Shown here in pieces: positions 11,991 to 37,110 of a DNA stretch of 42,348 nucleotides. This DNA comes from an uncultured Clostridia bacterium (GTDB lineage: Bacteria; Bacillota; Clostridia; Christensenellales; Borkfalkiaceae), in contig CALVLH010000013.1 of NCBI GenBank assembly GCA_944336975.1, positions 1 to 42,348 on the forward strand, written 5' to 3'. The notes below the pieces were generated by a model, which saw only the letters and a list, made by a program, of their open reading frames with translations, did not search any database and was not told the origin of the DNA. The translations under genes were made by a program, and so were the position numbers. Every line of letters starts with the position of its first letter. Positions within the stretch are counted from its first letter, which is position 1.

Positions 11991-12443
11991 TTATCTGAAA
12001 ATTTCTTTGACCGCGCGGTCGGTCGCGCGCTTGACGTCGCGTTCGGCGATGGAACGCTTTTTGTCGTAGGTGTGTTTGCCGCGGCAGAGCGCGATCTCGG
12101 CTTTGACGAGCGCGTCCTTGAAATACAGTTTCAGCGGCACGAGAGTATAGCCTTTCTCGTTGACTTTTCCGACGATCTTGGCGATCTCGCGCTTATGCAG
12201 GAGCAGTTTTCGGTCGCGGCGCGAATCGCGCGTGGAAAAGGCGCCGCTCTTGTCGTAGAGGGCGATGTGCATATTTTTGAGGAACACTTCCCCGCGGCTG
12301 ATCTCGCAGAAACTCTCGCCGAGGGAAGCGTGCCCCGCGCGCAGCGATTTGACTTCGCTGCCTTCCAGCACGACGCCCGCTTCGAATTTGTCCTCGATGA
12401 AATATTCGAACGAAGCCGATTTATTGACGGCAATGACTTTCAT
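11991..12443 (-). CDS. smpB: SsrA-binding protein
   Basis: 150 aa, the normal SmpB length. It is an OB-fold protein that delivers tmRNA to stalled ribosomes. Conserved stretches are YFIEDKFEAGVVLEGSEVKSLRAG near the N-terminus, KLLLHKREIAKI in the middle, and the basic C-terminal tail GKHTYDKKRSIAERDVKRATDRAVKEIFR that enters the decoding centre. The ATG at 12443 opens the conserved MKVIAVNK start. No Shine-Dalgarno is visible before it; instead a TATAAT ends seven bases upstream. It lies 39 bases after rnr, so it may be read both from the operon and from this internal promoter. Confidence 0.95.
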   Translation of the reverse strand: MKVIAVNKSASFEYFIEDKFEAGVVLEGSEVKSLRAGHASLGESFCEISRGEVFLKNMHIALYDKSGAFSTRDSRRDRKLLLHKREIAKIVGKVNEKGYTLVPLKLYFKDALVKAEIALCRGKHTYDKKRSIAERDVKRATDRAVKEIFR

Positions 12444-12449
12444 ACGCTT

Positions 12450-12478
12450 ATTATACCACAATTCCGCTTAAAAGGGAA
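12450..12478 (-). promoter_or_regulatory. Candidate internal promoter giving leaderless smpB mRNA
   Basis: Minus strand: weak -35 TTCCCT (12473-12478), 17-bp spacer, extended -10 TGG-TATAAT (12450-12455). The last T is exactly seven bases before the A of the smpB ATG, the normal distance to a transcription start. It lies just after the rnr stop. Confidence 0.5.
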
Positions 12479-12482
12479 CGGA

Positions 12483-14579
12483 TCAGAGAATTTTGTTGAG
12501 AAAAAGGAACTGCGTTCTGCGCGCGCCCCAGTCCACGCCGACCACTTTCACGCGCACGGACTCGCCGAGGCGGAAGGAGTTCTTCGTTCCGCGCAGGAGG
12601 AAGCGTTCTTCCACATAGTCGTAACTGTCCTCGGGGAGCGTTTCCAGGGGGAGAAATCCCTCGATCGTGTTTTTGAGTTCCGCGAACAGCCCGAACGAGG
12701 TCACGCCCGAGATCACCGCGTCGTATTCTTCCCCGATCTTGTCCTGCATATACGCGACCATATATAAAGCGTCCACGTCCCGTTCCGCTTCCGCCGCGTT
12801 TTTCTCGCATTCGGAGGACTGTACGGACGCCTGCGAGACGAAATCTTCGTAGCGGCGCACCGTCTCTTCGGGATGAGAAAGCGCTTCCTTGATGATGCGG
12901 TGGATGCACAGGTCGGGATAGCGGCGGATGGGCGAGGTGAAGTGACAGTAACAGTCGGAAGCAAGCCCGAAGTGTCCCGCGTTGAGCGGGGAATATTTCG
13001 CCTTTTGCATGGAGCGCAACATCACGCGGTTGACGAGGGAATAGATGGGGGAATCTTTCAGCCCTTCCAGGACGTCCTGATAGTCGCGCGGGGAGACCTT
13101 TTCGGGATCGAACTTCACCGTGACGCCCGCTTCCTGCAAAAATTCGAAAAAGCCGCGCGCCTTTTCTTCGGCGGGGCGCTCGTGCACGCGGTAGACGAAT
13201 GGCATCTGCATCTCGCTCATCATGCTCGCGACGCTCTCGTTGGCGAGCACCATGAACTGTTCGATCATCTCGTGCGAGACGGTGCGGTTATAGTCGGGGA
13301 TGACGATCTTCCCGTCGACATAGAGGATCTTCGCCTCCTTGATGTCCATCGCCACGCCGCCTTTCGCCGTGCGCGCCTCTTTGAGGATGTTCGTCAGTTC
13401 GATCGCCGTCTCCACAAAGCCGATGAGGTCGGGATAGCGTTCCCGCGTCTCGCGGTCGCCTTCGTGGATGGCGGTTACTGCGGTATAGGTCATGCGGTGC
13501 CGCGAGCGGATGACGGAAGGGGCGATCTTACGGCTGATCACCTTTCCGCTTTGATCTACCGTCATGAAACAGGAAAGCGTCAGGCGATCCACGCCTTCGT
13601 TGAGCGAACAGATGTTGTTGGAAAGCGCCTTGGGCAGCATGGGCAGCACGCGGTCGGGGAAATACACGCTCGTGCCGCGGCGGTATGCTTCCTTGTCGAT
13701 GATCTCGCCCCGCCAGACGTAATGGCTCACGTCGGCGATGTGCACGCCCAGATAATAAAGTCCATCCTTTTTCTCGACGGAAATCGCGTCGTCGATGTCG
13801 CGCGTGTCTTCGCCGTCCACGGTGATGATGAGCTCCCCGCGCAGATCGACGCGGTTTTTGAGGTCTTTTTCGGTGATGGGGCGCGCCGCCTGACGATCGG
13901 CTTCCGCGACGACGTCGTCGGGGAATTCTTCGCGCAGGTTATGGGCGCGGATGAGGGAGAGCTCTTCCACAAAGAAATCGCCGCCCTCGCCTAAGATCTC
14001 CGTGATCTCGCCCTCGGGGGCGCGTCCTTCGGGATAGCGTAGAACGGTCGCGACGGCCTTCGCGCCGTCTGGACAATTCATGGACTTCGCGAGGGGGATG
14101 TAGACGTCTTCCGCGTATTTGCGCTCGTCGGGATGCAGGTATCCCGCCTTTTTTTCGCGGCGGAAAGTGCCGACGATTTCGCTGAGCCCGCGTTCAAGGA
14201 CGGCAAGCACCTCGCCTTCGTCGTCCGACATCCTGCCCTTGACGGGGATGCAGTAGACGGTATCGCCGTGCAGGGCGCCGTGCAGGGCGCGATGGGGGAT
14301 GAAGAGGTCGGAAAGCGCCTTATCTTCGGGCATGAAGAACCCGAACCCGCGCTCGTTGCCCGAGATTTTGCCTTTGAGGGCGCCGAACTGTTCCGCCGTG
14401 CCGTAGCGGTGGCGGGAGTCGGTGAGGATCTCGCCGTCGCGCACGAGCTCGCGGAGCATATCGCGCAGGGCATAACCTTCCTTTTTTCCGAGGCGCAGGG
14501 CGGCGGCGATCTGTTCGTCCGTTTTCAGGGCGAAGTCGCCGTTTTTTATCTTGTTGAGTAGCGATTGTTTTGCGTTCAA
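12483..14579 (-). CDS. rnr: Ribonuclease R (RNase II/RNB family exoribonuclease)
   Basis: 698 aa from a TTG at 14579 that has AGGAG five bases upstream; upstream in-frame codons lack a ribosome site. The order is an N-terminal helix-turn-helix (about 1-75), two cold-shock RNA-binding domains, the RNB catalytic domain and a C-terminal S1 domain. The metal-binding aspartates are visible in DGEDTRDIDDAISVEKK. The lysine-rich tail of E. coli RNase R is missing, as in many Firmicutes. It degrades structured RNA 3' to 5' and works with tmRNA-SmpB on stalled messages, which fits its place between secG and smpB. Confidence 0.94.
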   Translation of the reverse strand: MNAKQSLLNKIKNGDFALKTDEQIAAALRLGKKEGYALRDMLRELVRDGEILTDSRHRYGTAEQFGALKGKISGNERGFGFFMPEDKALSDLFIPHRALHGALHGDTVYCIPVKGRMSDDEGEVLAVLERGLSEIVGTFRREKKAGYLHPDERKYAEDVYIPLAKSMNCPDGAKAVATVLRYPEGRAPEGEITEILGEGGDFFVEELSLIRAHNLREEFPDDVVAEADRQAARPITEKDLKNRVDLRGELIITVDGEDTRDIDDAISVEKKDGLYYLGVHIADVSHYVWRGEIIDKEAYRRGTSVYFPDRVLPMLPKALSNNICSLNEGVDRLTLSCFMTVDQSGKVISRKIAPSVIRSRHRMTYTAVTAIHEGDRETRERYPDLIGFVETAIELTNILKEARTAKGGVAMDIKEAKILYVDGKIVIPDYNRTVSHEMIEQFMVLANESVASMMSEMQMPFVYRVHERPAEEKARGFFEFLQEAGVTVKFDPEKVSPRDYQDVLEGLKDSPIYSLVNRVMLRSMQKAKYSPLNAGHFGLASDCYCHFTSPIRRYPDLCIHRIIKEALSHPEETVRRYEDFVSQASVQSSECEKNAAEAERDVDALYMVAYMQDKIGEEYDAVISGVTSFGLFAELKNTIEGFLPLETLPEDSYDYVEERFLLRGTKNSFRLGESVRVKVVGVDWGARRTQFLFLNKIL

Positions 14580-14614
14580 AATAACTCCTTGTTTTCGGGA
14601 AAGGGAAAACAAAA

Positions 14615-14639
14615 GGGCAGCCCATCCTTTGAGCCGCCC
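14615..14639 (-). terminator. Possible attenuator hairpin between secG and rnr
   Basis: Minus-strand stem GGGCGGC/GCTGCCC with one G-U pair and an 11-nt loop, followed by CTTTTGTTTT. The stem is modest, so partial read-through is likely. It would let secG be expressed more than rnr-smpB. Confidence 0.4.
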
Positions 14640-14659
14640 GCATCCGCCTGATTCGCCGA

Positions 14660-14971
14660 TCAGGACCAAAATCCTTCGTATTGCAGAATATAGAAGACAA
14701 TGGCGAGCACCGCCAGCACGACGAGGCAAGCGACCGTCCACTTTTTACGGGCGGACTCGCTCGATCTTCCCTTGTTTTTGCCGAAGAACGTCTCGCTCGA
14801 TCCGCCCAGCGCGTCGATGCCTTCCGAGTTGCCCGGCTGGATGAACACGAGAATAATGGACGCAAGCGCCGCGACGAACATCAAAACAACGAGCACGATG
14901 CTGATGACGAGATAGGTGTAATAATGTGCGGCGTCCGCGGTGGGGACAAGCAGATTGGTGAACAATTCCAT
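14660..14971 (-). CDS. secG: Preprotein translocase subunit SecG
   Basis: 103 aa with two hydrophobic segments: a long one at about 17-44 and a second at about 78-98. Between them is a polar loop with the SecG signatures QPGNSEGIDALGG and FFGKNKGRSSES. SecG stimulates protein export through SecYE. The extra 16 residues before the first membrane segment are slightly long for the family. It is the first gene of secG-rnr-smpB, a common Firmicutes arrangement, with AAAGGA upstream and its own promoter. Confidence 0.9.
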   Translation of the reverse strand: MELFTNLLVPTADAAHYYTYLVISIVLVVLMFVAALASIILVFIQPGNSEGIDALGGSSETFFGKNKGRSSESARKKWTVACLVVLAVLAIVFYILQYEGFWS

Positions 14972-15018
14972 TTTTTACGATCCTTTTCCGAAATTTAGTA
15001 TTCAAAGTAACAACAGAG

Positions 15019-15047
15019 AGTATAGCATATCCGCGCAGAAATGACAA
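15019..15047 (-). promoter_or_regulatory. SigA-type promoter of secG-rnr-smpB-metY-metA
   Basis: Minus strand TTGTCA (15042-15047), 17-bp spacer, extended -10 TGC-TATACT (15019-15024). The leader is about 40 nt. Confidence 0.8.
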
Positions 15048-15084
15048 CTTTTTTTGCGCCGTTTTTCTCAAAAACAAAAAAAAT

Positions 15085-15106
15085 TCCCTCCCGCAACGGG
15101 GAGGGA
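15085..15106 (-). terminator. Intrinsic terminator of the lipoprotein gene
   Basis: Eight-bp stem TCCCTCCC/GGGAGGGA with a 6-nt loop, followed on the minus strand by seven or more U. It sits five bases after the lipoprotein stop. Confidence 0.9.
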
Positions 15107-15111
15107 GTCAA

Positions 15112-15516
15112 TTATTTCGTGCTCTTGAAGATGTCTGCCGCGTCGGTGAGCGGGGTGTAGAAGAGCAGAACGCAGTTGCCGCTGACATAGTCGGATTTCT
15201 GGATGTCGGAAATAAGCCCTTTGAGCGATTCGCTTTCGTTGATCGCGTCCTCCATTTCCTGCGTGGACTTGAATTCGAGGATGAGTGCGACTTTCAGCCC
15301 GTCTGCCATCAGGTGAACCGAGCAGACGTCCTCGAAATCCTCGCCGAGCGCTTCGACGATCTTGGTCTGATATTCCTCGACGTTTTCGCTTTCCGAATAA
15401 CCTTCCGCTTCATACGCGCGGCGGATCTTGGAATAGCTGCTGCAACCGCACAGCAGGGTGATCGCGATCGCCGCGATCAACGCAACGAGAACGACGGTGA
15501 TGCCTCTCTTTTTCAT
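15112..15516 (-). CDS. Small predicted lipoprotein of unknown function
   Basis: 134 aa. The N-terminus is a lipoprotein signal: KKR, a hydrophobic stretch to residue 22, then LLCGC with the probable lipidated cysteine at C25 followed by SS. The mature part (about 110 aa) is acidic and has alternating helix and strand character, for example EEYQTKIVEALGEDFEDVCSVHLM and NCVLLFYTPLTDAADIFK. I do not recognise the family. The second ATG (15516) is chosen because it is nine bases from AAGGAG; the first is only three. It is monocistronic with its own promoter and terminator, and divergent from the shikimate-kinase-like gene. Confidence 0.75.
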   Translation of the reverse strand: MKKRGITVVLVALIAAIAITLLCGCSSYSKIRRAYEAEGYSESENVEEYQTKIVEALGEDFEDVCSVHLMADGLKVALILEFKSTQEMEDAINESESLKGLISDIQKSDYVSGNCVLLFYTPLTDAADIFKSTK

Positions 15517-15550
15517 ATACATTCACTCCTTATAAGTTAAAGTCAAAAAA

Positions 15551-15579
15551 ATTATATTATATTTTCAGCGTAAAGTCAA
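15551..15579 (-). promoter_or_regulatory. SigA-type promoter of the lipoprotein gene
   Basis: Minus strand TTGACT (15574-15579), 17-bp spacer, TATAAT (15551-15556). An overlapping ATATAAT repeat gives a second possible -10. It is divergent from the promoter at 15633. Confidence 0.8.
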
Positions 15580-15632
15580 GCGATAAACATTTTTTTCTTT
15601 TCAGAATTCCCGCAAAGGGATAGGGGCGACGA

Positions 15633-15661
15633 TTGACAATCGGTTTCTTTTGTTCTATAAT
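15633..15661 (+). promoter_or_regulatory. Consensus SigA promoter, leaderless shikimate-kinase-like gene
   Basis: A full match to consensus: TTGACA (15633-15638), 17-bp spacer, TATAAT (15656-15661). The ATG at 15670 begins nine bases after the last T, so the mRNA should start at or within two bases of the start codon. There is no ribosome site. Confidence 0.85.
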
Positions 15662-15669
15662 AAAACGGT

Positions 15670-16176
15670 ATGGACAATATCGTTTTGATCGGGATGCCCT
15701 CGTCGGGGAAAAGCACGGCGGGCGTGCTTCTCGCAAAGACAATCGGATACGGCTTCATCGACTGCGACCTCCTTATTCAGAACGAACAGAAGGCGCTGCT
15801 CCGCGACATCATCGGGCGGGAGGGCGCGGATGGGTTCATCGCCATCGAAGAGCGCGTCAACGCGGAGCTTTGGGCGGAACATTGCGTCATCGCCACGGGC
15901 GGGAGCGTCATCTACGGCGAAAGGGCAATGGAACACCTCAGAAAAATGGGCAAGATCGTCTATCTTCATTTGAGCGAAGCGGAAGTCGCCCGCAGGATCA
16001 CCAGCCTTTCCCTGCGCGGCGTCGTGATGAAGGGGAATATTTCCACCCTCGAAGAACTCTATGCGGAGCGCGCTCCGCTCTATGAAAAATATGCCGACGT
16101 CATCGTCAACTGCGATCATCAGACGATCGACGAAACGGTTGCCGCACTCGTCTCGGCGATCGGGGCGGATGTATGA
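15670..16176 (+). CDS. Shikimate kinase-like protein lacking the shikimate-binding arginine
   Basis: 168 aa, the length of AroK. It has a P-loop (GMPSSGKST, 8-16), D31 and D33 in FIDCDLL, TGGSVIY near 76-82, a RGVVM lid and ERAPLYEKYADVIV. In true shikimate kinases the segment after D33 contains FRxxE, whose arginine holds the shikimate carboxylate. Here the same place reads FIAIEE, so that arginine is an isoleucine (residue 57). The fold and phosphoryl transfer are secure, but the substrate may not be shikimate. No other aromatic-pathway gene is nearby; the next gene, a ketopantoate-reductase-like dehydrogenase, overlaps as ATGA. Confidence 0.75.
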   Translation: MDNIVLIGMPSSGKSTAGVLLAKTIGYGFIDCDLLIQNEQKALLRDIIGREGADGFIAIEERVNAELWAEHCVIATGGSVIYGERAMEHLRKMGKIVYLHLSEAEVARRITSLSLRGVVMKGNISTLEELYAERAPLYEKYADVIVNCDHQTIDETVAALVSAIGADV

Positions 16177-17171
16177 GGCTGTGCGTTTACGGCGCGGGCG
16201 CGATGGGGACCGTCCTCGGCGCGTTGCTCGTCCGCGCGGGTGTTCCCGCCGATCTCGTCACCCGTAACAAAGAGCGCGTGGAAGCGTTCCGCCGCTCGGG
16301 CGCGCGCGTGGTCGGCGAGACGAATTTCTGCGTTTCCGTGCAGGCTTATACGCCCGAAGAGATGACGGGGAAATACGACTTCGTTTTTCTCCTCACCAAA
16401 CAGAAGGGAAATGCGGAAACGGCGCGGTTTCTCAAAGAATATCTTGCGGAGGGCGGTGCGCTCGTGTGTATGCAGAACGGGCTTCCCGAGCGCGCGCTCG
16501 CTTCGGAACTGGGAAAAGAGCGCGTCTACGGCTGCGTCCTTTCGTGGGGCGCGACGTCGGAAGGGGACGAGTCGTCCCGTCTGACAAGCGATGTTTCCGC
16601 GCTCCGATGCGTGCTCGGCGCTTACGGCGGCGGGCGCCGTACGGAAGAGGTCGCGCACCTTCTATCCAAGATCATGCGCGTCGAGATCACGGACAACCTC
16701 AAAGAGGCGCGTTTTGCGAAACTCGCGATCAACGCCTCCTTTTCCACGCTTTCCGCGCTCACGGGGCTCACCTTCGGGGAGATCGCCCGCAGGCGCAAGA
16801 CGTCGGATCTCGCGGCGAGACTGATGAAAGAGGCGTTTTCCGTCGCGAAAGCGGCGGGCTGTAAAAGACTGCCCGTGCAGGGGCACGATCTCCTGCACCT
16901 GCTCGATTACAGGTCGGCGGCGGGCAAACTGCGCACGCGGCTCCTTTTGCCGATCGCGATGAAAAAGCACAAAAACCTCGTTTCGGGGATGCTCGTCGCG
17001 CTCGAACAGGGAAAAAGGTGCGAGATCGACGAGATCTCGGGCGCGGTCGTACGCGAAGGAAAGCGGCTGGGCGTGCCCGTACCCGTGCAGGAACGCGCGG
17101 TCGCACTCATACACGACATCGAAAACGGCTTTGCCGAACTCTCTTACGAAACGGTCGAATTGTTCGACTGA
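16173..17171 (+). CDS. Ketopantoate reductase (PanE/ApbA) family dehydrogenase
   Basis: 332 aa. The Rossmann domain starts with YGAGAMGTVLGALL and covers about residues 1-170. The C-terminal helical domain starts at KEARFAKLAINASFSTLSALTG, with the catalytic lysine in the usual AKLAINA position. Family members reduce 2-dehydropantoate to pantoate with NADPH for coenzyme A synthesis. It is coupled to the kinase-like gene by a 4-base overlap. No panB, panC or panD is in view, so a different 2-oxoacid substrate cannot be excluded. It is followed 42 bases later by gltX. Confidence 0.8.
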   Translation: MRLCVYGAGAMGTVLGALLVRAGVPADLVTRNKERVEAFRRSGARVVGETNFCVSVQAYTPEEMTGKYDFVFLLTKQKGNAETARFLKEYLAEGGALVCMQNGLPERALASELGKERVYGCVLSWGATSEGDESSRLTSDVSALRCVLGAYGGGRRTEEVAHLLSKIMRVEITDNLKEARFAKLAINASFSTLSALTGLTFGEIARRRKTSDLAARLMKEAFSVAKAAGCKRLPVQGHDLLHLLDYRSAAGKLRTRLLLPIAMKKHKNLVSGMLVALEQGKRCEIDEISGAVVREGKRLGVPVPVQERAVALIHDIENGFAELSYETVELFD

Positions 17172-17213
17172 ACAGAATTTTGCGTTCCGCAAACAGGCGG
17201 ACGAGGAGCGAAT

Positions 17214-18848
17214 ATGGACTTGAAAAAACTTGCCGAAAGGCTGATCCCGGGCGAATACCGCCCGCTTTCCGAATACGAGGCGATGTATCCTCCGCGCGAT
17301 CTTCCCAAAGGCGCGCAGGTGACGCGCCTTGCGCCGTCGCCGACGGGATTCATCCACCTGGGCAATCTGTTCGTGGCGATCGCGAACGAAAGAGTCGCGC
17401 ATCAGAGCAACGGCGTCCTGTATCTCCGTATCGAGGATACGGACGAAAAGCGCAAGGTGGAAGGCGCGGTGGAGGCGGTCAAGAACGCGCTCCGCTATTT
17501 CGACATCCGCTTTGACGAAGGCGCGGAGATCGAAGGGGCGGAAAACGCCTACGGTCCCTATTATCAGCGTCAGCGCGCGGAGATCTACCGCGCGTTCGCG
17601 CGCGATCTCGTCGGGCGCGGGCTGGCGTATCCCTGCTTCTGCACGGAGGAAGAGCTTTCCGCGCTCCGCGAAAAGCAGACGGCGGAAAAGAAGATCACGG
17701 GCTATTACGGCGAATACGCGGTCTGCCGCAACCTCACCGAGGAGCAGATCTGTGCCAACCTCGACGCGGGCAAGCCGTACGTCATCCGCCTGAGATCGCA
17801 GGGGGATCCCGAGCGCAAGATCGCCTTTCACGACGAGATCAAAGGGGACATCACGGTCACGGAGAACGATCAGGACGTCGTCATCCTGAAATCGGACGGC
17901 ATCCCGACCTATCATTTCGCGCACGCGATCGACGATCATTTCATGCGCACGACGCTCGTCATCCGCGGCGAGGAGTGGCTCGCTTCTCTGCCCATCCACA
18001 TCGAACTGTTCGACGTCCTCGGCTTCCGCCGCCCCGCGTACGGGCATAACTGCTCCTTGCAGAAGATGGACGGGGATACCCGCCGCAAACTCTCCAAGCG
18101 CAAGGATCCCGAACTTTCCCTCGAATTTTACCGCAAGGAAGGGTATTTTGCCCGCGCGGTCAAGGTATATATGATGACGCTGCTCAACTCCAACTTCGAG
18201 GAGTGGTATCTCAAATTCCCCGACAAAGACCTCGAGGAATTCCGCTTCTCCGTCGGCAAGATGGGCAAGAGCGGCGCGCTGTTCGATCTCGCCAAGCTCA
18301 ACGACATCTCCAAGAACGAGCTTGCCCGCCTTTCCGCGGAAGAGATGTTTGAGTTTCTCCGCGCATGGGCGGAAGAATACGGCACGGAGGAGCAGAAGGG
18401 GTATTTTGCCGATCGCGAGTATATGCTCCGCGTGCTCAACCTCTGTATGGGGACGTCGGGCAAGAAGCGCAGAAAGGACTTCGTCACGGCAAAACAGGCA
18501 GCGGAACTCATTTCCTATTTCTTCCGCGCGCCCGTCCGCGAGGACGAATACCGCGTGGACGGAAAGACGAAGGGCGACATCCTCCGCGCGTTCGGGCGCA
18601 CTTACGACTATGCGGACGACGCGCAAGTCTGGTTCGCAAAGGTGAAAAACGTGGCGGCGGAACTCGGATTCGCCGCGGAGATGAAGGACTACAAACAAAA
18701 TCCCGAAGCGTACAAGGGCAGCGTTTCCGACGTGGCGGAAGTGCTCCGCATCGCGGTGACGGGCAAGGCGAACACGCCCGATCTGTGGACGATCATGCAG
18801 ATCCTGGGCGAAAAGCGCACCCGCGAGCGCCTTTGCGCGGCGGAATAA
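17214..18848 (+). CDS. gltX: Glutamate--tRNA ligase (GlxRS family)
   Basis: 544 aa. The class I signature HIGH appears as HLGN (48-51) in APSPTGFIHLGN, and KMSKS as KLSKR near residue 290. The catalytic domain spans about 35-330 and the helical anticodon-binding region about 340-544. About 33 residues precede the catalytic domain (ending PPRDLPKGAQ), longer than in E. coli but of a kind I associate with clostridial proteins. It charges tRNA-Glu, and in many Firmicutes tRNA-Gln as well for later amidation. The ATG has GAGGAG nine bases upstream. Confidence 0.93.
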   Translation: MDLKKLAERLIPGEYRPLSEYEAMYPPRDLPKGAQVTRLAPSPTGFIHLGNLFVAIANERVAHQSNGVLYLRIEDTDEKRKVEGAVEAVKNALRYFDIRFDEGAEIEGAENAYGPYYQRQRAEIYRAFARDLVGRGLAYPCFCTEEELSALREKQTAEKKITGYYGEYAVCRNLTEEQICANLDAGKPYVIRLRSQGDPERKIAFHDEIKGDITVTENDQDVVILKSDGIPTYHFAHAIDDHFMRTTLVIRGEEWLASLPIHIELFDVLGFRRPAYGHNCSLQKMDGDTRRKLSKRKDPELSLEFYRKEGYFARAVKVYMMTLLNSNFEEWYLKFPDKDLEEFRFSVGKMGKSGALFDLAKLNDISKNELARLSAEEMFEFLRAWAEEYGTEEQKGYFADREYMLRVLNLCMGTSGKKRRKDFVTAKQAAELISYFFRAPVREDEYRVDGKTKGDILRAFGRTYDYADDAQVWFAKVKNVAAELGFAAEMKDYKQNPEAYKGSVSDVAEVLRIAVTGKANTPDLWTIMQILGEKRTRERLCAAE

Positions 18849-18858
18849 GGAGGAAAAT

Positions 18859-22676: not shown

Positions 22677-23414
22677 TCATACGGGGAAGAGCAGTTCGAC
22701 GGCGTATTTTCCCTTGCGCGTGAGCCCGCCGCATTCGCCGACGTAAAATTTCCCCTTGCCGCGCACGGCGACGCAATCGCCCGTTTTCAGTTCCTTTGCG
22801 TTTTCCGTGCAAATTTTGCCGTTGAGGGAAACGCGTTCACTGCGGAAATATTCGAGCGCGTCTGCGCGGGAAAGGCGGAAAGCGGCGCAGACCGTTACGT
22901 CGCAGCGCAGGGAGGATAAGGTCACGCGCTCGCTCCTGCGCTCGTTTGCGATTTTCGGGCGTTCTTCCGTGAGCGTGCAGACGACGTCCGTATGACGGAC
23001 GGAAGTCAGATTTCCGCACAGATAGGGCGCGATGCGCGTAAGACAGAAGGCATAAGAGCAGTCCTCTCCGACGATGAGATCTCCGATCGCGCTCCGATCG
23101 ATCCCGAGCGAAAGGAGGGCGCCGAGCAGGTCGCGGTGGGTGTACGGCTGAGCGAATTTCCTGCTTTTCGGCGTTATTTTCAGGCAGGAGACGGGGAAAT
23201 CCCCGTTGCAACCGCAGCAGCCGAACCGAGCGATCTGTCTTGCGCAGCCTTTCGCGCCGCCGAAGAGTTCGAGCCCCGCGTAGGCGAACTGCGCCCGTTC
23301 CGCGTTCAGTTCGAGGCATTCGCTTTCGCTCAGGAAGTCGGAAAAGAAATAGCGGCCTTCGCGGAAAGCGCGGTCGGCAAGCTCGTGCATTCTGTTGAAG
23401 AAGTGGGTTTCCAT
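22677..23414 (-). CDS. S4-domain RNA-binding protein, YlmH-like
   Basis: 245 aa. The N-terminal two-thirds resembles YlmH of Gram-positive bacteria, with THRDLLGALLSLGIDRSAIGDLIVGEDCSY matching its most conserved motif. The C-terminal 60 residues are an S4 RNA-binding domain (LSRADALEYFRSERVSLNGKICTENAKELKTGDCVAVRGKGKF). YlmH is implicated in rescue of stalled 50S-peptidyl-tRNA complexes. Usually it sits in the division cluster near sepF; here it is alone, divergent from yabP. The ATG at 23414 follows GAGGGT directly, too close to act as a ribosome site; the promoter predicts a leaderless message. Confidence 0.85.
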   Translation of the reverse strand: METHFFNRMHELADRAFREGRYFFSDFLSESECLELNAERAQFAYAGLELFGGAKGCARQIARFGCCGCNGDFPVSCLKITPKSRKFAQPYTHRDLLGALLSLGIDRSAIGDLIVGEDCSYAFCLTRIAPYLCGNLTSVRHTDVVCTLTEERPKIANERRSERVTLSSLRCDVTVCAAFRLSRADALEYFRSERVSLNGKICTENAKELKTGDCVAVRGKGKFYVGECGGLTRKGKYAVELLFPV

Positions 23415-23420
23415 ACCCTC

Positions 23421-23449
23421 ATTATACGTCTGTTTTCGCATAAAGTCAA
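23421..23449 (-). promoter_or_regulatory. SigA promoter, leaderless S4-protein mRNA
   Basis: Minus strand TTGACT (23444-23449), 17-bp spacer, TATAAT (23421-23426). The A of the ATG (23414) is exactly seven bases after the last T, the expected +1. Confidence 0.85.
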
Positions 23450-26754: not shown

Positions 26755-26961
26755 TCATTGATCGGAAAGACCGAGTAAATAATCCGAGGTTACGTTAAAA
26801 TATTTGGCGATCTTTGCAATGTTGGAAGCGGTCGGGTCGCTTTTGTTGGTTTCCCAATAACATACAATTCCCAGGCTGACGCTCAAATCCCTTGCTACAG
26901 TCGCTTGTGACAGGCCTCGTTCTTTTCTCAGTTCCATGAGCCGTTCTGAAAAAATCTTCAT
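26755..26961 (-). CDS. XRE-family helix-turn-helix regulator
   Basis: 68 aa, essentially one HTH_3 domain: LMELRKERGLSQATVARDLSVSLGIVCYWETNKSDPTASNIAKIAKYFNVTSDYLLG. Helix 2-turn-helix 3 is SQATVARDLSVSLGIVCYWE. There is no extra domain, like the small clostridial regulators of the SinR/ImmR type. It is single, divergent from the phosphatase gene across an AT-rich 174-bp region and may control that region or itself. There is no ribosome site; the promoter places the mRNA start on the ATG, so the message is probably leaderless. Confidence 0.9.
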   Translation of the reverse strand: MKIFSERLMELRKERGLSQATVARDLSVSLGIVCYWETNKSDPTASNIAKIAKYFNVTSDYLLGLSDQ

Positions 26962-26967
26962 GCCTAC

Positions 26968-26996
26968 ATTATACTCAACATACTCGCCGAATGCAA
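26968..26996 (-). promoter_or_regulatory. SigA promoter, leaderless XRE mRNA, with repeat over the -10
   Basis: Minus strand TTGCAT (26991-26996), 17-bp spacer, TATAAT (26968-26973); the ATG is exactly seven bases after the last T. A direct repeat GAGTAT-GTT-GAGTAT covers the spacer and -10 and may be an operator. Confidence 0.75.
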
Positions 26997-30005: not shown

Positions 30006-30114
30006 GCGGAAGACGGATCGGGCGCGTTCGGACGTCGGATTTTCCGTCGAGGCGGTGCCCGAACGGGCGTTTTGCGTTCGTGCGATCGTTTCAGAACGGG
30101 CGGACGCCTTTTAT

Positions 30115-31033: not shown

Positions 31034-31036
31034 GGC

Positions 31037-31065
31037 TTGAAAACAGAATAAGTCTGTGTTATACT
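31037..31065 (+). promoter_or_regulatory. SigA promoter, leaderless HEPN-CBS mRNA
   Basis: TTGAAA (31037-31042), 17-bp spacer, extended -10 TGT-TATACT (31060-31065). The ATG at 31072 is exactly seven bases after the last T. Confidence 0.8.
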
Positions 31066-31071
31066 GTTGTC

Positions 31072-31977
31072 ATGAATCAGAACGACAAGCGATACGATCG
31101 CCAAACCGGAAACAAAGGATCTCAGAAAAAACGCTCCGCACAGGACGCGCCGCACAAAAAACGTCCCGCAGAAGAGGAGGCGCGCGCGTCTTTGCGGGAG
31201 GAAGAGCAGGGCTCTTTTTTGCCCGACGAAAACGTCGCGGACGAGATCGGGGAAGGAACGTCGACGGGAGCGCGCAACAACGCCCTGCAATTTATTTCCG
31301 ACTACAACCTGATCGACGCCCGTCTGCGAGCCATTTATCGCGGGCAGGGCAATTTGCAGTTCTCCGATCTCGTGCGCCGTTGCGCGGAGTTTCATCCGGT
31401 CGTCCGCCGCTACGAGGGCGATCTGATGACGTTTGCCAAGCTCCGCAACGCCATCGTGCACAACAGCACGGCAGAGCGAGTCATCGCGCAGCCCTGCGAT
31501 GAAGTGACCGACGAGCTTTCGCATATCGCCGCCCTGCTGACCATGCCGCCGAAGCTGAATAAGCTCAAAGAAAAGGGCGTGATCGGCATTCCGTGGGAAT
31601 CGTCCATCGGCGACGCGCTCATCCGCATCGCGCAGAGCGGCTATTCCAATCTTCCCGTATACAGCGGGGAGCGCATGGTGGGCATGATCAACAACCGCCG
31701 TCTCGTCCGCGAGCTGGGCAACGCTCTCCTGCGCAAGGAGGATATGGACGAATTTCTTGCCCGCTCCTGCCGTTCCGTCCTGCACGACGAAGATATGCTC
31801 AATTATTATAAGGTATTGGGGCGGGACGACACCGTGCACGAAGCGCTGGAAGCGTTCGAGGACAACAAGAAGTTGCTCGCCGTCATCGTCACGGAGACGG
31901 GAAGGGCGGGCGACAGGATCGTCAACATCGTCACGGCGGCGGATCTTCCCCGCCTGCTCAAACTGTTGGAAGAGTGA
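31072..31977 (+). CDS. HEPN-like domain fused to a CBS-domain pair
   Basis: 301 aa. Residues 1-65 are disordered, basic then acidic. Residues about 70-155 are helical and include KLRNAIVHNS, where R125 and H130 form the RX4H motif of HEPN domains, many of which are RNases. Residues about 160-215 (GDALIRIAQSGYSNLPVYSGERMVGMINNRRLV) and 240-300 (ALEAFEDNKKLLAVIVTE...IVNIVTAADL) are two CBS motifs that normally bind adenine nucleotides. A nucleotide-gated RNA-binding or RNA-cleaving protein is a reasonable inference. It stands alone with its own promoter and no ribosome site. No antitoxin-like partner is next to it. Confidence 0.7.
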   Translation: MNQNDKRYDRQTGNKGSQKKRSAQDAPHKKRPAEEEARASLREEEQGSFLPDENVADEIGEGTSTGARNNALQFISDYNLIDARLRAIYRGQGNLQFSDLVRRCAEFHPVVRRYEGDLMTFAKLRNAIVHNSTAERVIAQPCDEVTDELSHIAALLTMPPKLNKLKEKGVIGIPWESSIGDALIRIAQSGYSNLPVYSGERMVGMINNRRLVRELGNALLRKEDMDEFLARSCRSVLHDEDMLNYYKVLGRDDTVHEALEAFEDNKKLLAVIVTETGRAGDRIVNIVTAADLPRLLKLLEE

Positions 31978-32137
31978 TCGTATGCGATGACCGAAAGCGA
32001 AAGTCTCCCGCAAAAGGGGGATCGCCGCCCGCGGTCAGAAAGAGGGGAACGCGAAGCGCGCTTGTCGTCCTCGCGCCGCCCCGTGCGATTTTTCCGAGAC
32101 TCGGAACGATCGGACGCGAAAAACAATAGAAAAGCAA

Positions 32138-32171
32138 ACGCCGCCCGCCTGAACAAACAGGCGGGCGGCGT
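32138..32171 (-). terminator. Intrinsic terminator of degV
   Basis: Fourteen-bp perfect stem ACGCCGCCCGCCTG/CAGGCGGGCGGCGT with a 6-nt loop; on the minus strand TTTGCTTTTC follows. 31978-32229 has no other supported feature. Confidence 0.85.
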
Positions 32172-32229
32172 TATCGTCTGCCCCGAACACGCGGGGACAT
32201 TTCCGAAGATCGGCGATTGTCTGTGCGCG

Positions 32230-33102
32230 TTATTTGAGGACGCGCGTGCAGGTGCAGGCGAGCGAGCCGGGGCCGATATGGCAGGCGACGCTCAGAGAAA
32301 GGGGATCGATGAAGGTGAGGGGAACGTCGGGGAACGCGGCTTTGAGTTCTTCCGCAAAGCTCTGCGCTTCCTCGAAGCTGTCCGTATGCGCGACGGAGAT
32401 GGTCATCTCTCCGTTTTTGCGGTATTCGGCAAAGCGCGTGGCGAGATCGTTGCGGAGCGCGTCGATCATGACTTCCCGTGCCTTTTTCACCGATTTGACG
32501 GTGGAATTGAATTTATCCAGCTTATCGCCCTGGATCTGCAAAACGGGGCGAAGTTTGAGCAGCGTGCCGATGAGCGCCGCCGCAGGGGTGAGTCTGCCGC
32601 CCTTTTTGAGATATTTGAGCGTGTCGAGGCTGATATAGATGCTGCTGTCGCGCCCCATTTTTTCGAGGATCGCTTTGATCTCCGCCGCGCTCTTTCCCTC
32701 GTTTGCGAGCTTGATCGCGTCGATGACGCTCTGTTTCTGCGTGACGGAAATGCGCAGGTTATCCACGACCTGCACGCGCCCGCCGTATTCCTTCGCCTGC
32801 GCGATCGCCGATTGGCAGGACATGGAAAGCCCGCTCGACATCGGGATGTGCACGACTTCCGAGCCGTCTGCGAGCAATCCTTCCCACAGTTCGGTCACGT
32901 TCCCGATCGCGGGCTGCGACGTGGAGACGGAAGCGTCGCCCTTGAGGTGCGCGTAAAATTCCGTCTGCGTCAGGTTGATGTCTTCGAAGTACTCTTCACC
33001 GTCGATCAGAAAGGGCATCGGGAGGACGGAGATTCCCAGTTTCTCCGCTTCCGACTGCGTGATGCCGCTGTTCGAGTCGGTGACGATCTTTACTTTCGCC
33101 AT
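32230..33102 (-). CDS. DegV family fatty-acid-binding protein
   Basis: 290 aa, the standard DegV length. It has the N-terminal KIVTDSNSGI (usually DSxxDL/GI), VVHIPMSSGLSMSCQSA that binds the fatty-acid carboxylate, and KYLKKGGRLTPAAALIGTLLKLRPVLQIQGDKL typical of the second domain. DegV/FakB proteins present fatty acids to the FakA kinase for entry into phospholipids. No FakA is in the window. It is single, between its own promoter and terminator; GGAG lies eight bases before the ATG. Confidence 0.92.
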   Translation of the reverse strand: MAKVKIVTDSNSGITQSEAEKLGISVLPMPFLIDGEEYFEDINLTQTEFYAHLKGDASVSTSQPAIGNVTELWEGLLADGSEVVHIPMSSGLSMSCQSAIAQAKEYGGRVQVVDNLRISVTQKQSVIDAIKLANEGKSAAEIKAILEKMGRDSSIYISLDTLKYLKKGGRLTPAAALIGTLLKLRPVLQIQGDKLDKFNSTVKSVKKAREVMIDALRNDLATRFAEYRKNGEMTISVAHTDSFEEAQSFAEELKAAFPDVPLTFIDPLSLSVACHIGPGSLACTCTRVLK

Positions 33103-33131
33103 GTTAAACTCTCCAATTAAGATTTTTAACT

Positions 33132-33160
33132 ATTATAGCAGAAAGAAGAGAGCAGGTCAA
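33132..33160 (-). promoter_or_regulatory. SigA promoter of degV
   Basis: Minus strand TTGACC (33155-33160), 17-bp spacer, extended -10 TGC-TATAAT (33132-33137). The leader is about 23 nt. Confidence 0.85.
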
Positions 33161-33247
33161 ACGATACGCGCCGTTTGTCATAAAAAATTATTACTTAAAA
33201 AAATGATCTCTTTGCAGAAAATATTTCACAAAGTAAAACGTCGGAAT

Positions 33248-33276
33248 TTGACAAAATATATTCTCCGTTGTATAAT
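33248..33276 (+). promoter_or_regulatory. Consensus SigA promoter of nfnAB
   Basis: TTGACA (33248-33253), 17-bp spacer, TATAAT (33271-33276). The leader is about 40 nt with GGGAGG before the ATG. Confidence 0.88.
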
Positions 33277-33321
33277 AACGCTTATACGGGATTCCCGACG
33301 TGGATCCGCGGGAGGTTGCAA

Positions 33322-34164
33322 ATGTATCGCATACTGAAAAGGAAAGAACTCAATCCTACCGTCACGCTGATGGACATCGAAGCGCCTTTTGTCGCAAGGA
33401 AGGCGAAAGCGGGACAGTTTATCATATTGCGCGTGGACGAGGAAGGGGAACGCATTCCCCTGACCGTCGCGGGGTGCGACGCGAATACGGGCGCCGTCAC
33501 GATCATTTTTCAGATCGTCGGCGCGACCACGCAGAAACTCAACGAGAAAAAAGAAGGCGAATTCATTCAGGATTTCGTCGGGCCGCTCGGAAGACCCACG
33601 CACGTCGAGGGACTCAGAAAGGTCGCCGTCGTGGGCGGCGGCGTCGGCTGTGCGATCGCGCTTCCCGTCGCGCGCCGTCTGCACGAGCTCGGCTGCGAAG
33701 TGACGAGCATCGTCGGTTTTCGCAACAAAGACCTCGTCATCCTCGAAGAGGAATTCAGGGAATATTCCGACCGCTTCTTCATGATGACGGACGACGGCAG
33801 TTACGGCGAGCACGGCAACGTCTGCGTGCCGCTCAACCGCCTGCTGGAAGCGGGGGAGCGCTTCGACGAGGTCATCACGATCGGGCCGCTCATCATGATG
33901 AAATTCGTCGCGCTGGCGACCAAGCCTTACGGCGTAAAGACGATCGCGAGCATGAACCCCGTCATGATCGACGGAACGGGGATGTGCGGCGGATGCCGCC
34001 TGACCGTGGGCGGAGAGACCAAGTTCGCCTGTGTGGACGGCCCCGAATTCGACGCGCACCTCATCGACTTCGACGAGGCGATGAAGCGCTCGCGCACCTA
34101 TTCCGAATTTGAGAAAGAGGCTCGGGAAAAACACTGCAACCTCTTCCGCCAGGAGGTAAAATAA
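33322..34164 (+). CDS. nfnA: Ferredoxin-NADP+ oxidoreductase NfnA-type subunit
   Basis: 280 aa. N-terminal FAD-binding barrel (RIPLTVAGCDANTGAVTIIFQIVG), NAD(P)-binding Rossmann domain (VAVVGGGVGCAIALPVA) and a C-terminal [2Fe-2S] motif with D217, C222, C225 and C237. An Asp-plus-three-Cys ligand set is known from NfnA. Paired with the next gene it forms NfnAB (also called sulfide dehydrogenase SudAB), which bifurcates electrons between NADH, ferredoxin and NADPH in anaerobes. The ATG at 33322 has GGGAGG eight bases upstream; a longer reading would begin inside the promoter. Confidence 0.9.
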   Translation: MYRILKRKELNPTVTLMDIEAPFVARKAKAGQFIILRVDEEGERIPLTVAGCDANTGAVTIIFQIVGATTQKLNEKKEGEFIQDFVGPLGRPTHVEGLRKVAVVGGGVGCAIALPVARRLHELGCEVTSIVGFRNKDLVILEEEFREYSDRFFMMTDDGSYGEHGNVCVPLNRLLEAGERFDEVITIGPLIMMKFVALATKPYGVKTIASMNPVMIDGTGMCGGCRLTVGGETKFACVDGPEFDAHLIDFDEAMKRSRTYSEFEKEAREKHCNLFRQEVK

Positions 34165-34165
34165 G

Positions 34166-35563
34166 ATGCCGAAATTCAACATGAATCCCAAGAAAAATCC
34201 CATGCCGTCGCAGGATCCGCTCGTCAGAAACAAGAATTTCGACGAAGTCGCGACGGGTTATACGGCGGAGACGGCGATCGACGAGGCGAAGCGCTGTCTG
34301 AACTGCAAAAATCAGCCGTGCGTAGCGGGCTGTCCCGTCAATATCCACATCCCCGAATTCATCGCGTGCGTGGCGGAAGGAAGGTTCGAGGACGCCTATC
34401 AGGTGATCGCGCGTTCTTCCTCCCTTCCCGCGGTCTGCGGACGCGTCTGCCCGCAGGAAACGCAGTGCGAAGGCAGATGCACGCGCGGGATCAAGGGCGA
34501 ACCCGTCGCCATCGGTCGGCTGGAACGCTTCGTAGCGGACTATCACAACGCAAACTGCGCGCAGAAACCCGTCCGTCCCGAGAGCAACGGGCATAAGGTC
34601 GCGATCGTCGGATCCGGCCCCGCGGGGCTGACCTGCGCGGGCGATCTCGCGAAGCTGGGTTACGACGTCACCGTGTTCGAGGCGCTTCACCTCGCGGGCG
34701 GCGTGCTCGTCTACGGAATCCCCGAATTCCGTCTCCCCAAGGCGATCGTGCGCAAAGAGGTGGAAAATCTGCAGGCTCTCGGCGTGAAGATCGAGACGAA
34801 CATGGTCATCGGCAGAGTGCTTTCCGTCGAAGAACTCAAAGAGGAATACGGCTTCGAGGCGATATTCATCGGTTCGGGCGCGGGTCTTCCCAAGTTCATG
34901 GGCATTCCCGGGGAGAATGCGAAAGGGGTATATTCGGCGAACGAATATCTCACCCGCACCAACCTCATGAAAGCGTATAAAGAGGGGAGCGCGACGCCCA
35001 TCATGCACGCGAAGAACGTCGCGGTCGTGGGCGGCGGAAACGTCGCGATGGACGCGGCGCGTTGCGCAAAGCGCATGGGCGCGGAAAACGTCTACATCGT
35101 TTACCGCCGTTCGGAAGCGGAACTTCCCGCGCGGCGCGAGGAAGTGGAGCACGCGAAGGAAGAGCAGATCATCTTCCGCCTTCTGACCAATCCCGTGGAG
35201 ATTCTCGCGGACGAGCAGGACAACGTGGTCGGCATGAAGTGCATCGAGATGGAGCTGGGCGAGCCGGACGCGAGCGGACGCCGCCGCCCCGTGGAAAAGC
35301 CGGGCAGCGAGTTCACGATGGACGTGGATTGCGTGATCATGTCGCTCGGCACTTCTCCCAATCCGCTCCTCAAAGCGACGACGCCCGGGCTGGAAACGCA
35401 GCGCCGCGGGGAGATCGTCGCGGACGAGACGGGCAAGACCTCGCTCGAAGGCGTCTATGCGGGCGGTGACGCGGTCACGGGCGCGGCGACGGTCATCCTC
35501 GCGATGGGCGCGGGTAAGACGGCGGCGAAGGCGATCGACGAATATATCAGGAACAGATCGTAA
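34166..35563 (+). CDS. nfnB: NfnB-type subunit (glutamate synthase small-subunit-like, NADPH-dependent)
   Basis: 465 aa. Two N-terminal [4Fe-4S] sites are given by C44, C47, C52, C56 and C91, C95, C101, C105. An FAD-binding Rossmann motif (VAIVGSGPAGLTCAGDLAKLGYDV) and an NADPH-binding one (VAVVGGGNVAMDAARCAKRMGA) follow, and the C-terminal GGDAVTGAATVILAMGAGKTAA closes the flavin site. Such proteins are often annotated gltA/gltD; next to nfnA, with a one-base gap and shared promoter, NfnB is the better name. The AGGAGG site lies inside the end of nfnA. Confidence 0.92.
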   Translation: MPKFNMNPKKNPMPSQDPLVRNKNFDEVATGYTAETAIDEAKRCLNCKNQPCVAGCPVNIHIPEFIACVAEGRFEDAYQVIARSSSLPAVCGRVCPQETQCEGRCTRGIKGEPVAIGRLERFVADYHNANCAQKPVRPESNGHKVAIVGSGPAGLTCAGDLAKLGYDVTVFEALHLAGGVLVYGIPEFRLPKAIVRKEVENLQALGVKIETNMVIGRVLSVEELKEEYGFEAIFIGSGAGLPKFMGIPGENAKGVYSANEYLTRTNLMKAYKEGSATPIMHAKNVAVVGGGNVAMDAARCAKRMGAENVYIVYRRSEAELPARREEVEHAKEEQIIFRLLTNPVEILADEQDNVVGMKCIEMELGEPDASGRRRPVEKPGSEFTMDVDCVIMSLGTSPNPLLKATTPGLETQRRGEIVADETGKTSLEGVYAGGDAVTGAATVILAMGAGKTAAKAIDEYIRNRS

Positions 35564-35589
35564 AATACGCGACAAAGAAAAAACGGCAG

Positions 35590-35615
35590 GCGGGCGCACG
35601 GATATTTGCGCCCGC
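35590..35615 (+). terminator. Intrinsic terminator after nfnB
   Basis: Nine-bp stem GCGGGCGCA/TGCGCCCGC with an 8-nt loop and TTTCT after it. Part of the loop and 3' arm doubles as the -35 region of the cwlD promoter. Confidence 0.75.
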
Positions 35616-35628
35616 TTTCTCATACCAT
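35600..35628 (+). promoter_or_regulatory. SigE-like sporulation promoter of cwlD
   Basis: -35 GGATATT (35600-35606; SigE consensus KMATATT), 14-bp spacer, -10 CATACCAT (35621-35628; consensus CATACAnT). The ATG (35634) is six bases after the final T, the same geometry as at yabP. No ribosome site is present. Confidence 0.65.
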
Positions 35629-35633
35629 AGAAT

Positions 35634-36338
35634 ATGGATTTTCTCTTCAAACATCGCGCCGCGCTCGGATTTGCCTGTCTTGCGCTCGCGGTGATCGTGA
35701 CTTTCGGCATCTGTTTCTTCGCGCTTTCGGTAACAGCTTCGTCCGCGCAGCGCATCACCGTCGTCATTGACGCGGGACACGGCGGCGTGGACGGCGGCGT
35801 GACGGGCGTGAATACGGGGGCAAAAGAGAGCGACGTCAACCTGGACATCTCCCGCCTGTTGCAAAAGCGGCTGGAAGAGGCGGGGCTGTACGTCGTGCAG
35901 ACGCGGCTCACGCAATCGGGGCTGTACGGCGCGGCGGTCTCGGGATACAAGATGCGCGACATGAAAAAGCGCAAAGAGATCATCGAGAACGCTTCGCCCG
36001 CGCTCGTCGTATCCGTACATCAGAACTTTTTTCCGCTTTCTTCCCGCCGCGGCGCGCAGGTCTTTTATCGCGCCGATTCCGAGCAGTCGTACGCACTCGC
36101 CTGTCTCATACAGAACGCCTTCAACGCCATGCCCGAATGCGCGAGGAAGTGTCAGCCGCTCGCCGGCGACTATTACATCCTCAATTGCAGCGAATATCCT
36201 TCCGTCATCGCCGAATGCGGTTTTTTGTCCAACGCGCAGGACGAGGCGCTCCTCGTCACCGCCCAATATCGCGCGCGCGTCGCAGAAACGCTCGCCGAGG
36301 GCATACTTGCCTATCTTTCATCCGCCGCGAACGGTTGA
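35634..36338 (+). CDS. cwlD: N-acetylmuramoyl-L-alanine amidase, CwlD type
   Basis: 234 aa, near the 237 aa of Bacillus CwlD. An uncleaved N-terminal signal/membrane segment (about 9-36) precedes an Amidase_3 domain. Zinc ligands: H49 in VVIDAGHGG, E65 in KESDVNL and the histidine in VSVHQNFF; the catalytic Glu is in AECGFLSN. CwlD removes peptides from muramic acid so that muramic-delta-lactam can form in the spore cortex. A SigE-like promoter and the absence of other domains (no SPOR, no cell-wall repeat) support CwlD rather than a vegetative autolysin. Confidence 0.88.
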   Translation: MDFLFKHRAALGFACLALAVIVTFGICFFALSVTASSAQRITVVIDAGHGGVDGGVTGVNTGAKESDVNLDISRLLQKRLEEAGLYVVQTRLTQSGLYGAAVSGYKMRDMKKRKEIIENASPALVVSVHQNFFPLSSRRGAQVFYRADSEQSYALACLIQNAFNAMPECARKCQPLAGDYYILNCSEYPSVIAECGFLSNAQDEALLVTAQYRARVAETLAEGILAYLSSAANG

Positions 36339-36363
36339 CTTCCTTCGCTCGGGGTGATATAAT
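36335..36363 (+). promoter_or_regulatory. SigA promoter, leaderless thioesterase mRNA
   Basis: TTGACT (36335-36340), 17-bp spacer, extended -10 TGA-TATAAT (36358-36363). The ATG at 36370 is exactly seven bases after the last T. The -35 overlaps the cwlD stop. Confidence 0.85.
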
Positions 36364-36369
36364 TGCCAT

Positions 36370-37110
36370 ATGAGCGATTACAGGCATTTTCGGACGTTTG
36401 AAGTCCGCTATTCGGACGCCGATTTCAAAGACGACGTCAAACTTTCCGCGTTGCTCTCCTTTGTGCAGGAGGCGGCGTGTTCGAGCGCGGACGAGCTCGG
36501 CTTCGGATACGAAGCGCTCAAACCGCGCGGGCTCGGTTTTCTCGTGGTGGGAACGCAGTGCGAATTTTACGCGCCCGTCCGCCTGGGCGAAGCGATCACG
36601 GTCGCGACGTGGCCTTGTCCGCCCCGTCACGCCTTCTTCGAGAGAGATTACCTCGTGACGGATCGCGATGGGAACAAGCTCTGTGCGCTTGCCTCGCGCT
36701 GGTGTCTGTTCGATTTCGCTTCGGGAACGCTCCGTTCTGAGGACGCCCTGCCTGAGCACGAGCAGAATTGCTATAATCCCGAAAAGAGCATTGCCGTATC
36801 CTCGTGGCGGCTCCCGAAGATCGGAGAGGACGGGGAAGAGGTCTACCGCATGAAGATATGCGGGAGCCATTGCGATCACTATCTCCATGCGAACAACGCC
36901 CGTTATGCCGATTTCTTTTCCGATTGCTTCACCATGCGGGAACTTTCGGAGCGGCGCGTCAGGCGCTTTGCGATCACTTATATCCGCCAGGCAAAGGAAG
37001 GCGAGGAGATCGTTTTCGTGAGAAAAGACTGCGGAAACGGCGTATATCTCGCGGAAGCGCGTCATGACGGGGAGGCGATCGCACAATTTAGCATGGAAAC
37101 GGAGGATTAA
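36370..37110 (+). CDS. Acyl-ACP thioesterase
   Basis: 246 aa, a double hot-dog thioesterase of the plant-like acyl-ACP family. The first hot-dog domain has RYSDADFKDDVKLSALLSFVQEAA and TVATWPCPPRHAFFERDYLVTDRDG; the second starts at YRMKICGSHCDHYLHANNARYADFFSDC, with the conserved HANNARY-type motif. It releases free fatty acids from acyl-ACP. With degV in the neighbourhood this gives both release and re-use of fatty acids, though they are not in one operon. The start has no ribosome site; the promoter predicts leaderless initiation. Confidence 0.88.
   Translation: MSDYRHFRTFEVRYSDADFKDDVKLSALLSFVQEAACSSADELGFGYEALKPRGLGFLVVGTQCEFYAPVRLGEAITVATWPCPPRHAFFERDYLVTDRDGNKLCALASRWCLFDFASGTLRSEDALPEHEQNCYNPEKSIAVSSWRLPKIGEDGEEVYRMKICGSHCDHYLHANNARYADFFSDCFTMRELSERRVRRFAITYIRQAKEGEEIVFVRKDCGNGVYLAEARHDGEAIAQFSMETED

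Follow-up and report, generated by a model that had tools for sequence, protein, structure and literature searches.

Results

Promoters fused to start codons in a Clostridia genome

In the genome of an uncultured gut bacterium of the class Clostridia, a promoter of the housekeeping type ends exactly six bases before the start codon at about 5% of the ATG starts sampled, and very probably these genes give leaderless or nearly leaderless mRNAs, with a leader of 0-4 bases. This prediction is supported by a peak at a single spacing, by the loss of Shine-Dalgarno (SD) matches, by a pyrimidine at position -1 and by a spacing that is kept in relatives.

The starting point was a stretch of 42,348 nt, hereafter the window, in which the pattern TATAMT-N6-ATG occurs five times against 0.09 expected, and none of 100 shuffles of the window reached five. 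A sequence-only reading had described six bases between the -10 box and ATG at five genes and had judged chance an unlikely cause; all five sites were located as described, and the shuffles bear out the judgement. In the case of smpB (11991..12443, minus strand, ATG at 12441-12443; Pfam SmpB over residues 4-147, E 1.4e-57), the site lies at 12441-12455. Its -10 box TATAAT (12450..12455) is of the extended type, with TGG before it (TGGTATAAT), and the TTCCCT found where a -35 would be expected at 17 bp is unrecognisable as such.

The other four genes carry a -35 at a 17-bp spacer. On the minus strand these are a YlmH-like (S4-type) RNA-binding protein (22677..23414; Pfam YlmH_RBD, E 3e-11), with its site at 23412-23426 and the promoter TTGACT-N17-TATAAT at 23421..23449, and an XRE-type regulator of 68 aa (26755..26961; Pfam HTH_3 over residues 8-62, E 2.6e-12), with its site at 26959-26973 and TTGCAT-N17-TATAAT at 26968..26996. 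On the plus strand they are the HEPN-CBS gene (31072..31977), with its site, the only one with TATACT, at 31060-31074 and TTGAAA-N17-TATACT at 31037..31065, and an acyl-ACP thioesterase-like gene (36370..37110; Pfam Acyl-ACP_TE, E 5.5e-17), with its site at 36358-36372 and TTGACT-N17-TATAAT at 36335..36363. Thus the 17-bp spacer that had been claimed throughout holds for four of the five genes and fails for smpB. In the HEPN-CBS protein Pfam recognises the CBS domain and no HEPN domain, the latter name being the label of the sequence-only reading.

A sixth gene, shikimate-kinase-like (15670..16176, plus strand; named from the sequence-only reading and a P-loop start), has the promoter TTGACA-N17-TATAAT at 15633..15661 with eight bases to ATG (promoter and ATG together 15633-15672), exactly as previously read, from which we infer a leader of 0-2 bases. 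The strong SD sequences reported for other genes of the window were confirmed. The companion claim, that the promoter-fused genes lack a usable SD, needs one correction, as the thioesterase gene has a 5-base SD-like GGTGA; this match overlaps the -10 region and would thus be absent from the mRNA.

A one-base peak at gene starts

The whole assembly (1.717 Mb in 29 contigs, 94% complete; GC of the lineage 57%) holds 42 TATAMT-N6-ATG sites, compared to 11 for the reversed pattern. The window, 42 kb long, holds five of the 42, so that its site density is about five times the genome mean; it is a dense patch of a genome-wide feature.

To describe this at the level of genes, 40 stretches of 20 kb plus the window were sampled (842 kb, 49% of the genome). 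Genes were called with a home-made caller that relies solely on codon bias and the start codon to place starts and ignores upstream motifs; it is fallible and missed the XRE gene, which is therefore outside the counts below. Of 724 genes called, 628 had an ATG start with 60 upstream bases. Promoters were scored as -10 plus -35 at each distance d between the -10 box and ATG, with a cut-off of 10 or more, using matrices that, like the SD string, were set by hand.

At d=6, 31 of the 628 starts showed a sigma-A-like promoter. Directly adjacent spacings gave 0 (d=5) and 1 (d=7), followed by 6 at d=8 and 3 at d=9, and the background amounted to about 1.3 per spacing (mean of the twelve spacings 0-5 and 9-14). 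The sequence-only reading had proposed a genome-wide count set against shuffled upstream regions, and over the 49% of the genome sampled the outcome was clearly in its favour: in 200 shuffles the count at d=6 averaged 1.0 and never exceeded 4. The raw pattern behaves similarly, with TATAAT-N6-ATG found 23 times in 800 kb and 0 to 16 times at 30 other spacings in the range of 0 to 30. As raw controls, TATAAT-N6-GTA gave 10 matches and TATAAT-N4-GTA 17, the latter being expected because many sites read GTATG. In the same genome, GTG starts had no peak over background at d=6, and TANNNT boxes other than TATAMT had none either (123 at d=6, compared to 161 at d=5 and 133 at d=7).

Anatomy and neighbourhood of the d=6 genes

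An SD match of 5 or more bases was present in one of the 31 d=6 genes versus 325 of the 597 others (Fisher p 3e-9), and in that single gene the match lies over part of the -10 region. A pyrimidine stood at -1 in 30 of the 31, compared to 357 of the 597 others (Fisher p 5e-6). Transcription start points usually favour a purine preceded by a pyrimidine, which would be expected here if +1 is the A of ATG. The best -35 spacer among 16-18 was 17 in 25 of the 31, and a TGn extension was found in 13, as opposed to 22 of the 597 other genes at the same position. The base composition of codons 2-6 showed no clear difference between the two groups.

Regarding the genomic neighbourhood, the upstream neighbour lies on the opposite strand in 14 of the 30 leaderless genes for which one was called, versus 112 of 647 others. 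The remaining 16 follow a gene on the same strand, which in 10 cases ends less than 50 bases upstream, so that a leadered read-through mRNA may also exist there. In these ten genes the gap to the same-strand upstream gene measures 31-42 bases, in which the promoter just fits.

A Pfam scan covered 30 proteins, i.e. 29 of the 31 (all except L051:1288 and L068) plus the XRE regulator, and 28 of them matched at E 1e-4 or better. No functional theme was found among these 30, which include Obg, SmpB, methyltransferases, HhH-GPD, an aminotransferase, regulators and others. A pattern search for the 16S 3' end carrying the anti-SD, allowing one mismatch, gave a single match in the assembly; Rfam recognised no rRNA there, and the 16S 3' end was thus not found in this assembly with this pattern.

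Conservation of the spacing in relatives

For smpB, 103 loci were collected (23 from the genus and 80 further ones), of which 101 were readable (all except L154 and L167). A promoter stands at d=6 in 22 loci and at d=7 in two (the same sequence twice), thus in 24 of 101; three loci have it at d=11-12 and 74 have none. The six-base spacing is kept across relatives while the six bases themselves change. An SD match of 5 or more, taken as the best over possible starts, occurs in 32 of the 74 promoterless loci versus 1 of the 24 promoter-bearing ones, and a match of 4 or more in 63 versus 9, whereby rows are often near copies (60 of the 74 and 21 of the 24 are distinct sequences). A motif resembling the end of rnr, which we take to be the tail of that gene, lies upstream in 59 of the 74 promoterless and 23 of the 24 promoter-bearing loci. 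An alignment of 10 sequences, with and without promoter, places the start codons within two residues of one another.

A quickly built gene tree requires six changes of the leaderless state of smpB, at least four of these changes being forced by well-supported branches; gain and loss look alike on it, and it is a tree of the gene, not of the species. Read from this tree, the leaderless-type promoter of smpB is gained or lost several times.

The start codon at the d=6/7 promoters is ATG in 16 of 24 loci and GTG in 8. Six smpB loci (L081, L090, L177, L189, L198 and L201) have an in-frame ATG only 0-1 bases after TATAAT or TATACT and a GTG 6-7 bases after it; of the two, the GTG is more likely to serve leaderless initiation, and gene finders may be tempted into wrongly choosing the ATG, which lies within the promoter. 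Outside the counts stand the cut-off locus L094 and the loci L095-L100 from other families, in which no such promoter was seen by eye at the printed starts (for L098 none was printed). One of these, L096 from the order relative G037, has one in-frame TAG in its SmpB match.

The best public matches of the SmpB protein come from uncultured Clostridia or Firmicutes assemblies, several of them labelled as gut-derived, and the five that bear species names are all Candidatus Gallimonas, at 80-84% identity. A Candidatus Gallimonas-like lineage is the best reading of these matches.

The HEPN-CBS gene has a match in 14 of 25 genus genomes. In 11 of 12 orthologues, TATAAT or TATACT lies exactly six bases before the start, which in L109 is GTG instead of ATG; again the spacing is kept and the six bases vary. 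Ten of these 11 begin with the conserved M(S)NA or V(S)NA, and one with MGNA. In the case of the paralogues (nine loci, 36-41% identity), none has a promoter at d=6, eight have an SD match of 5 or more, and the ninth, L118, has AGGAGGTGA before its ATG, as judged by eye. One orthologue, L106, keeps TATACT but shows a leader with an SD-like GAGGAGG before the likely start, possibly a switch to SD-led translation. The protein encoded in the window has an N-terminal extension of about 65 residues, rich in charged residues (31072-31275), which is absent from the 12 orthologues.

For the thioesterase, 24 loci were compared (its own genome and 23 others), after exclusion of a C-terminal fragment and one weak match. 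All 24 have a strong promoter 6-10 bases before the start: eight at six, three at seven, three at eight, nine at nine and one at ten bases (L255, among those at six, has two ATGs, and the spacing is counted to the first). Only the locus of the genome studied here has an SD match of 5 or more. The spacing is thus not fixed at six, and leaders from about 0 to 4 bases belong to the class. The YlmH-like gene adds no comparative evidence: of the 25 genus genomes searched, its own is the only one with a match.

Reach across genus, order and class

Within the genus, TATAAT-N6-ATG outnumbers TATAAT-N10-ATG in all 25 genomes. Among 91 genomes of the order, including the one studied here and three more of its genus, such an excess is seen in 58 and is twofold or more in 23; several families have none. 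In two other genera of the same family the excess is small, with d=6 to d=10 ratios of 1.1 and 1.2. The ratio of forward to reversed pattern is 11.8 in the genus (10.8 without G003), set against a median of 1.45 in 112 Clostridia outside the order, three of which reach 5 or more, a comparison that is confounded by base composition.

The same gene pipeline was applied to single genomes, each sampled in part (360-400 kb); raw pattern counts and ratios can mislead and call for such a check of gene starts. In G092, from another family of the order, 11 of 237 starts had the promoter at d=6, none of these 11 with an SD match of 5 or more and all with a pyrimidine at -1. No gene had it in G046 (same order, GC 65%; 0 of 114), a weaker control as only 114 of its 307 called genes were scorable ATG starts, and none in G189 (same class, outside the order, GC 49%; 0 of 273). 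With a ratio of 12.7, the highest outside the order, G189 had appeared enriched, which its gene starts did not confirm.

The genus relative G003 had likewise appeared as an extreme case, with 104 pattern matches. At the gene level it has 5 of 224 starts at d=6 (394 kb), so the leaderless share varies within the genus, and the matches are largely a dispersed repeat. This repeat (L223-L251) is a hairpin with the core TATAATAAGGACATGTTTCGAC...GCTCAACATGACGTGATT, present in many copies, and inflates promoter-pattern counts; many of the pattern loci of G003 carry TATAATAAGGACATGTTTCGAC or a near variant. Of 30 such loci, 29 were checked on one strand for the pattern, which 18 showed (one locus read pair by pair). 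The pattern matches of G003 were therefore set aside as evidence for leaderless genes.

Discussion

Alternative explanations

The spacing, the promoter anatomy, the lack of SD matches and the -1 pyrimidine are direct observations on the sequence, as are the spacing and start codon kept in the relatives of two window genes. Chance or base composition deserves attention as a source of such patterns, because AT-rich genomes give many chance matches, in line with the median ratio of 1.5 in Clostridia outside the order. It is nevertheless refuted by the shuffles of the window and of the upstream regions and by the two control genomes, G046 and G189, which give zero. It is also very unlikely that the start codons are wrong, i.e. 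that ordinary leadered mRNAs are translated from a later, SD-bearing codon. Our start calls are indeed fallible. Promoterless SmpB orthologues, however, start at the same residue or within two, the d=6 HEPN-CBS orthologues begin at their conserved residues (the MGNA of one apart), and the thioesterases align from residue 1 in most loci. Moreover, wrong starts would yield neither a one-base peak nor a pyrimidine at -1.

A further proposal is that these genes are read from upstream promoters or by read-through, the d=6 boxes being accessory and the leadered mRNAs initiating independently of an SD. Speaking for it, 16 of 30 genes follow a gene on the same strand, 10 of them at less than 50 bases. 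On the other hand, the 14 genes with an upstream neighbour on the opposite strand speak against it, 30 of the 31 lack an SD of 5 or more, unlike the genes of C. phytofermentans, and in the smpB and HEPN-CBS relatives it is the spacing that is kept while the six bases change. We consider this proposal very improbable.

Proposed mechanism

Leaderless or nearly leaderless expression thus remains the preferred reading. The housekeeping sigma factor would bind a -35/-10 pair with a 17-base spacer, often with an extended -10, leaving six bases between the -10 box and the start codon. Transcription by RNA polymerase would then begin at the A of ATG, preceded by a pyrimidine, and give an mRNA with AUG at its very 5' end; the ribosome would take the message by this terminal AUG, without an SD leader. 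Leaderless mRNAs elsewhere are known to use 70S or IF2-dependent initiation on a 5'-terminal AUG. Both the transcription start at ATG and an initiation of this known type are inferred for the present genes.

Comparison with known leaderless systems

The novelty for Clostridia implied by the sequence-only reading was overstressed, even though its interpretation is itself supported, since transcription start site (TSS) maps report leaderless transcripts in other clostridia. In three solventogenic clostridia they make up about 2-3% of transcripts (PMC9045289); in C. phytofermentans 4% of intergenic TSS are potentially leaderless, the genes generally keeping other TSS and an RBS (PMC5171806); and for C. 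difficile 15 genes were listed as potentially leaderless (PMC7438776). An in-silico survey by Zheng and others in 2011 placed leaderless genes in 56 of 209 Firmicutes genomes, with a mean of 4.2%, concentrated in Lactobacillales and Mycoplasma (PMC3160421). More broadly, 21.6% of bacterial species are predicted users of leaderless transcription, as cited by StartLink (PMC9581028), and Cappable-seq of the mouse caecum gave 10% and 15% leaderless TSS in Akkermansia and Bifidobacterium, the other two of the four species including a Lachnospiraceae bacterium (PMC4782308). For the lineage studied here, no earlier report of leaderless genes was found among the matches listed in the open-licence literature. 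What we describe is a known expression mode, found in a lineage without earlier description in the literature searched.

The known systems that come closest share some traits with these genes and differ in others. The leaderless genes of Actinobacteria similarly have a -10-like box about 12 bases before the start, no SD and a promoter fused to the ORF, but there they comprise about 20% of genes and use a degenerate TANNNT (PMC3160421), whereas here they comprise about 5%, the box is a full TATAAT and most have a -35 at 17 bp. In Deinococcus-Thermus, another phylum, a -10 a few bases before the ORF, with a specific spacing, was experimentally tied to leaderless expression; the box there is TANNNT, and an added -35 raises expression (PMC12340547), and the gene share is far larger, around 40% (PMC3160421). 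Such a degenerate TANNNT without -35 is not what we found, given the lack of a TANNNT peak at d=6 and the 17-bp spacer being best in 25 of 31.

Lactobacillales such as Lactococcus are also Firmicutes and share the full TATAAT and the TG before the box, but they belong to the class Bacilli and are mostly of low GC (PMC3160421), compared to 57% GC in this Clostridia lineage. The solventogenic clostridia and C. phytofermentans are of the same class, with an experimentally mapped share of 2-4% of transcripts or TSS (PMC9045289, PMC5171806). C. phytofermentans differs in that an RBS and other TSS are generally kept (PMC5171806), whereas here the SD is lacking and the -10 lies mostly at six bases. 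As regards the general traits of bacterial leaderless genes, the -10 placement and the lack of SD are both found here (31 of 628 and 1 of 31), and the start codon, where AUG is usual and GUG tolerated, is ATG in this genome, while among relatives GTG follows 8 of the 24 such smpB promoters.

Implications for gene expression in the lineage

The 31-42 bases between some genes would be enough for a fused promoter, so that a gene can acquire a promoter of its own and still stay in a tight cluster; smpB seems to have done so behind an rnr-like gene. There is perhaps an even chance that leaderless initiation serves these bacteria as a stable second way of expressing genes, which single genes often enter or leave, with smpB alternating, by at least four changes on its gene tree, between being translated behind an rnr-like gene, often with an SD, and having its own promoter fused to the same start codon.

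Clostridia are commonly treated as SD users, and SD-based gene finders can miss or mis-start leaderless genes. If leaderless initiation is such a second mode, fusing promoter and start would cost little as a means of releasing a gene from its operon in a compact genome. Furthermore, a gene that is leaderless in one species and in the next follows another gene, in many cases with an SD, would provide natural pairs, well suited to studying the costs, gains and evolution of leaderless initiation.
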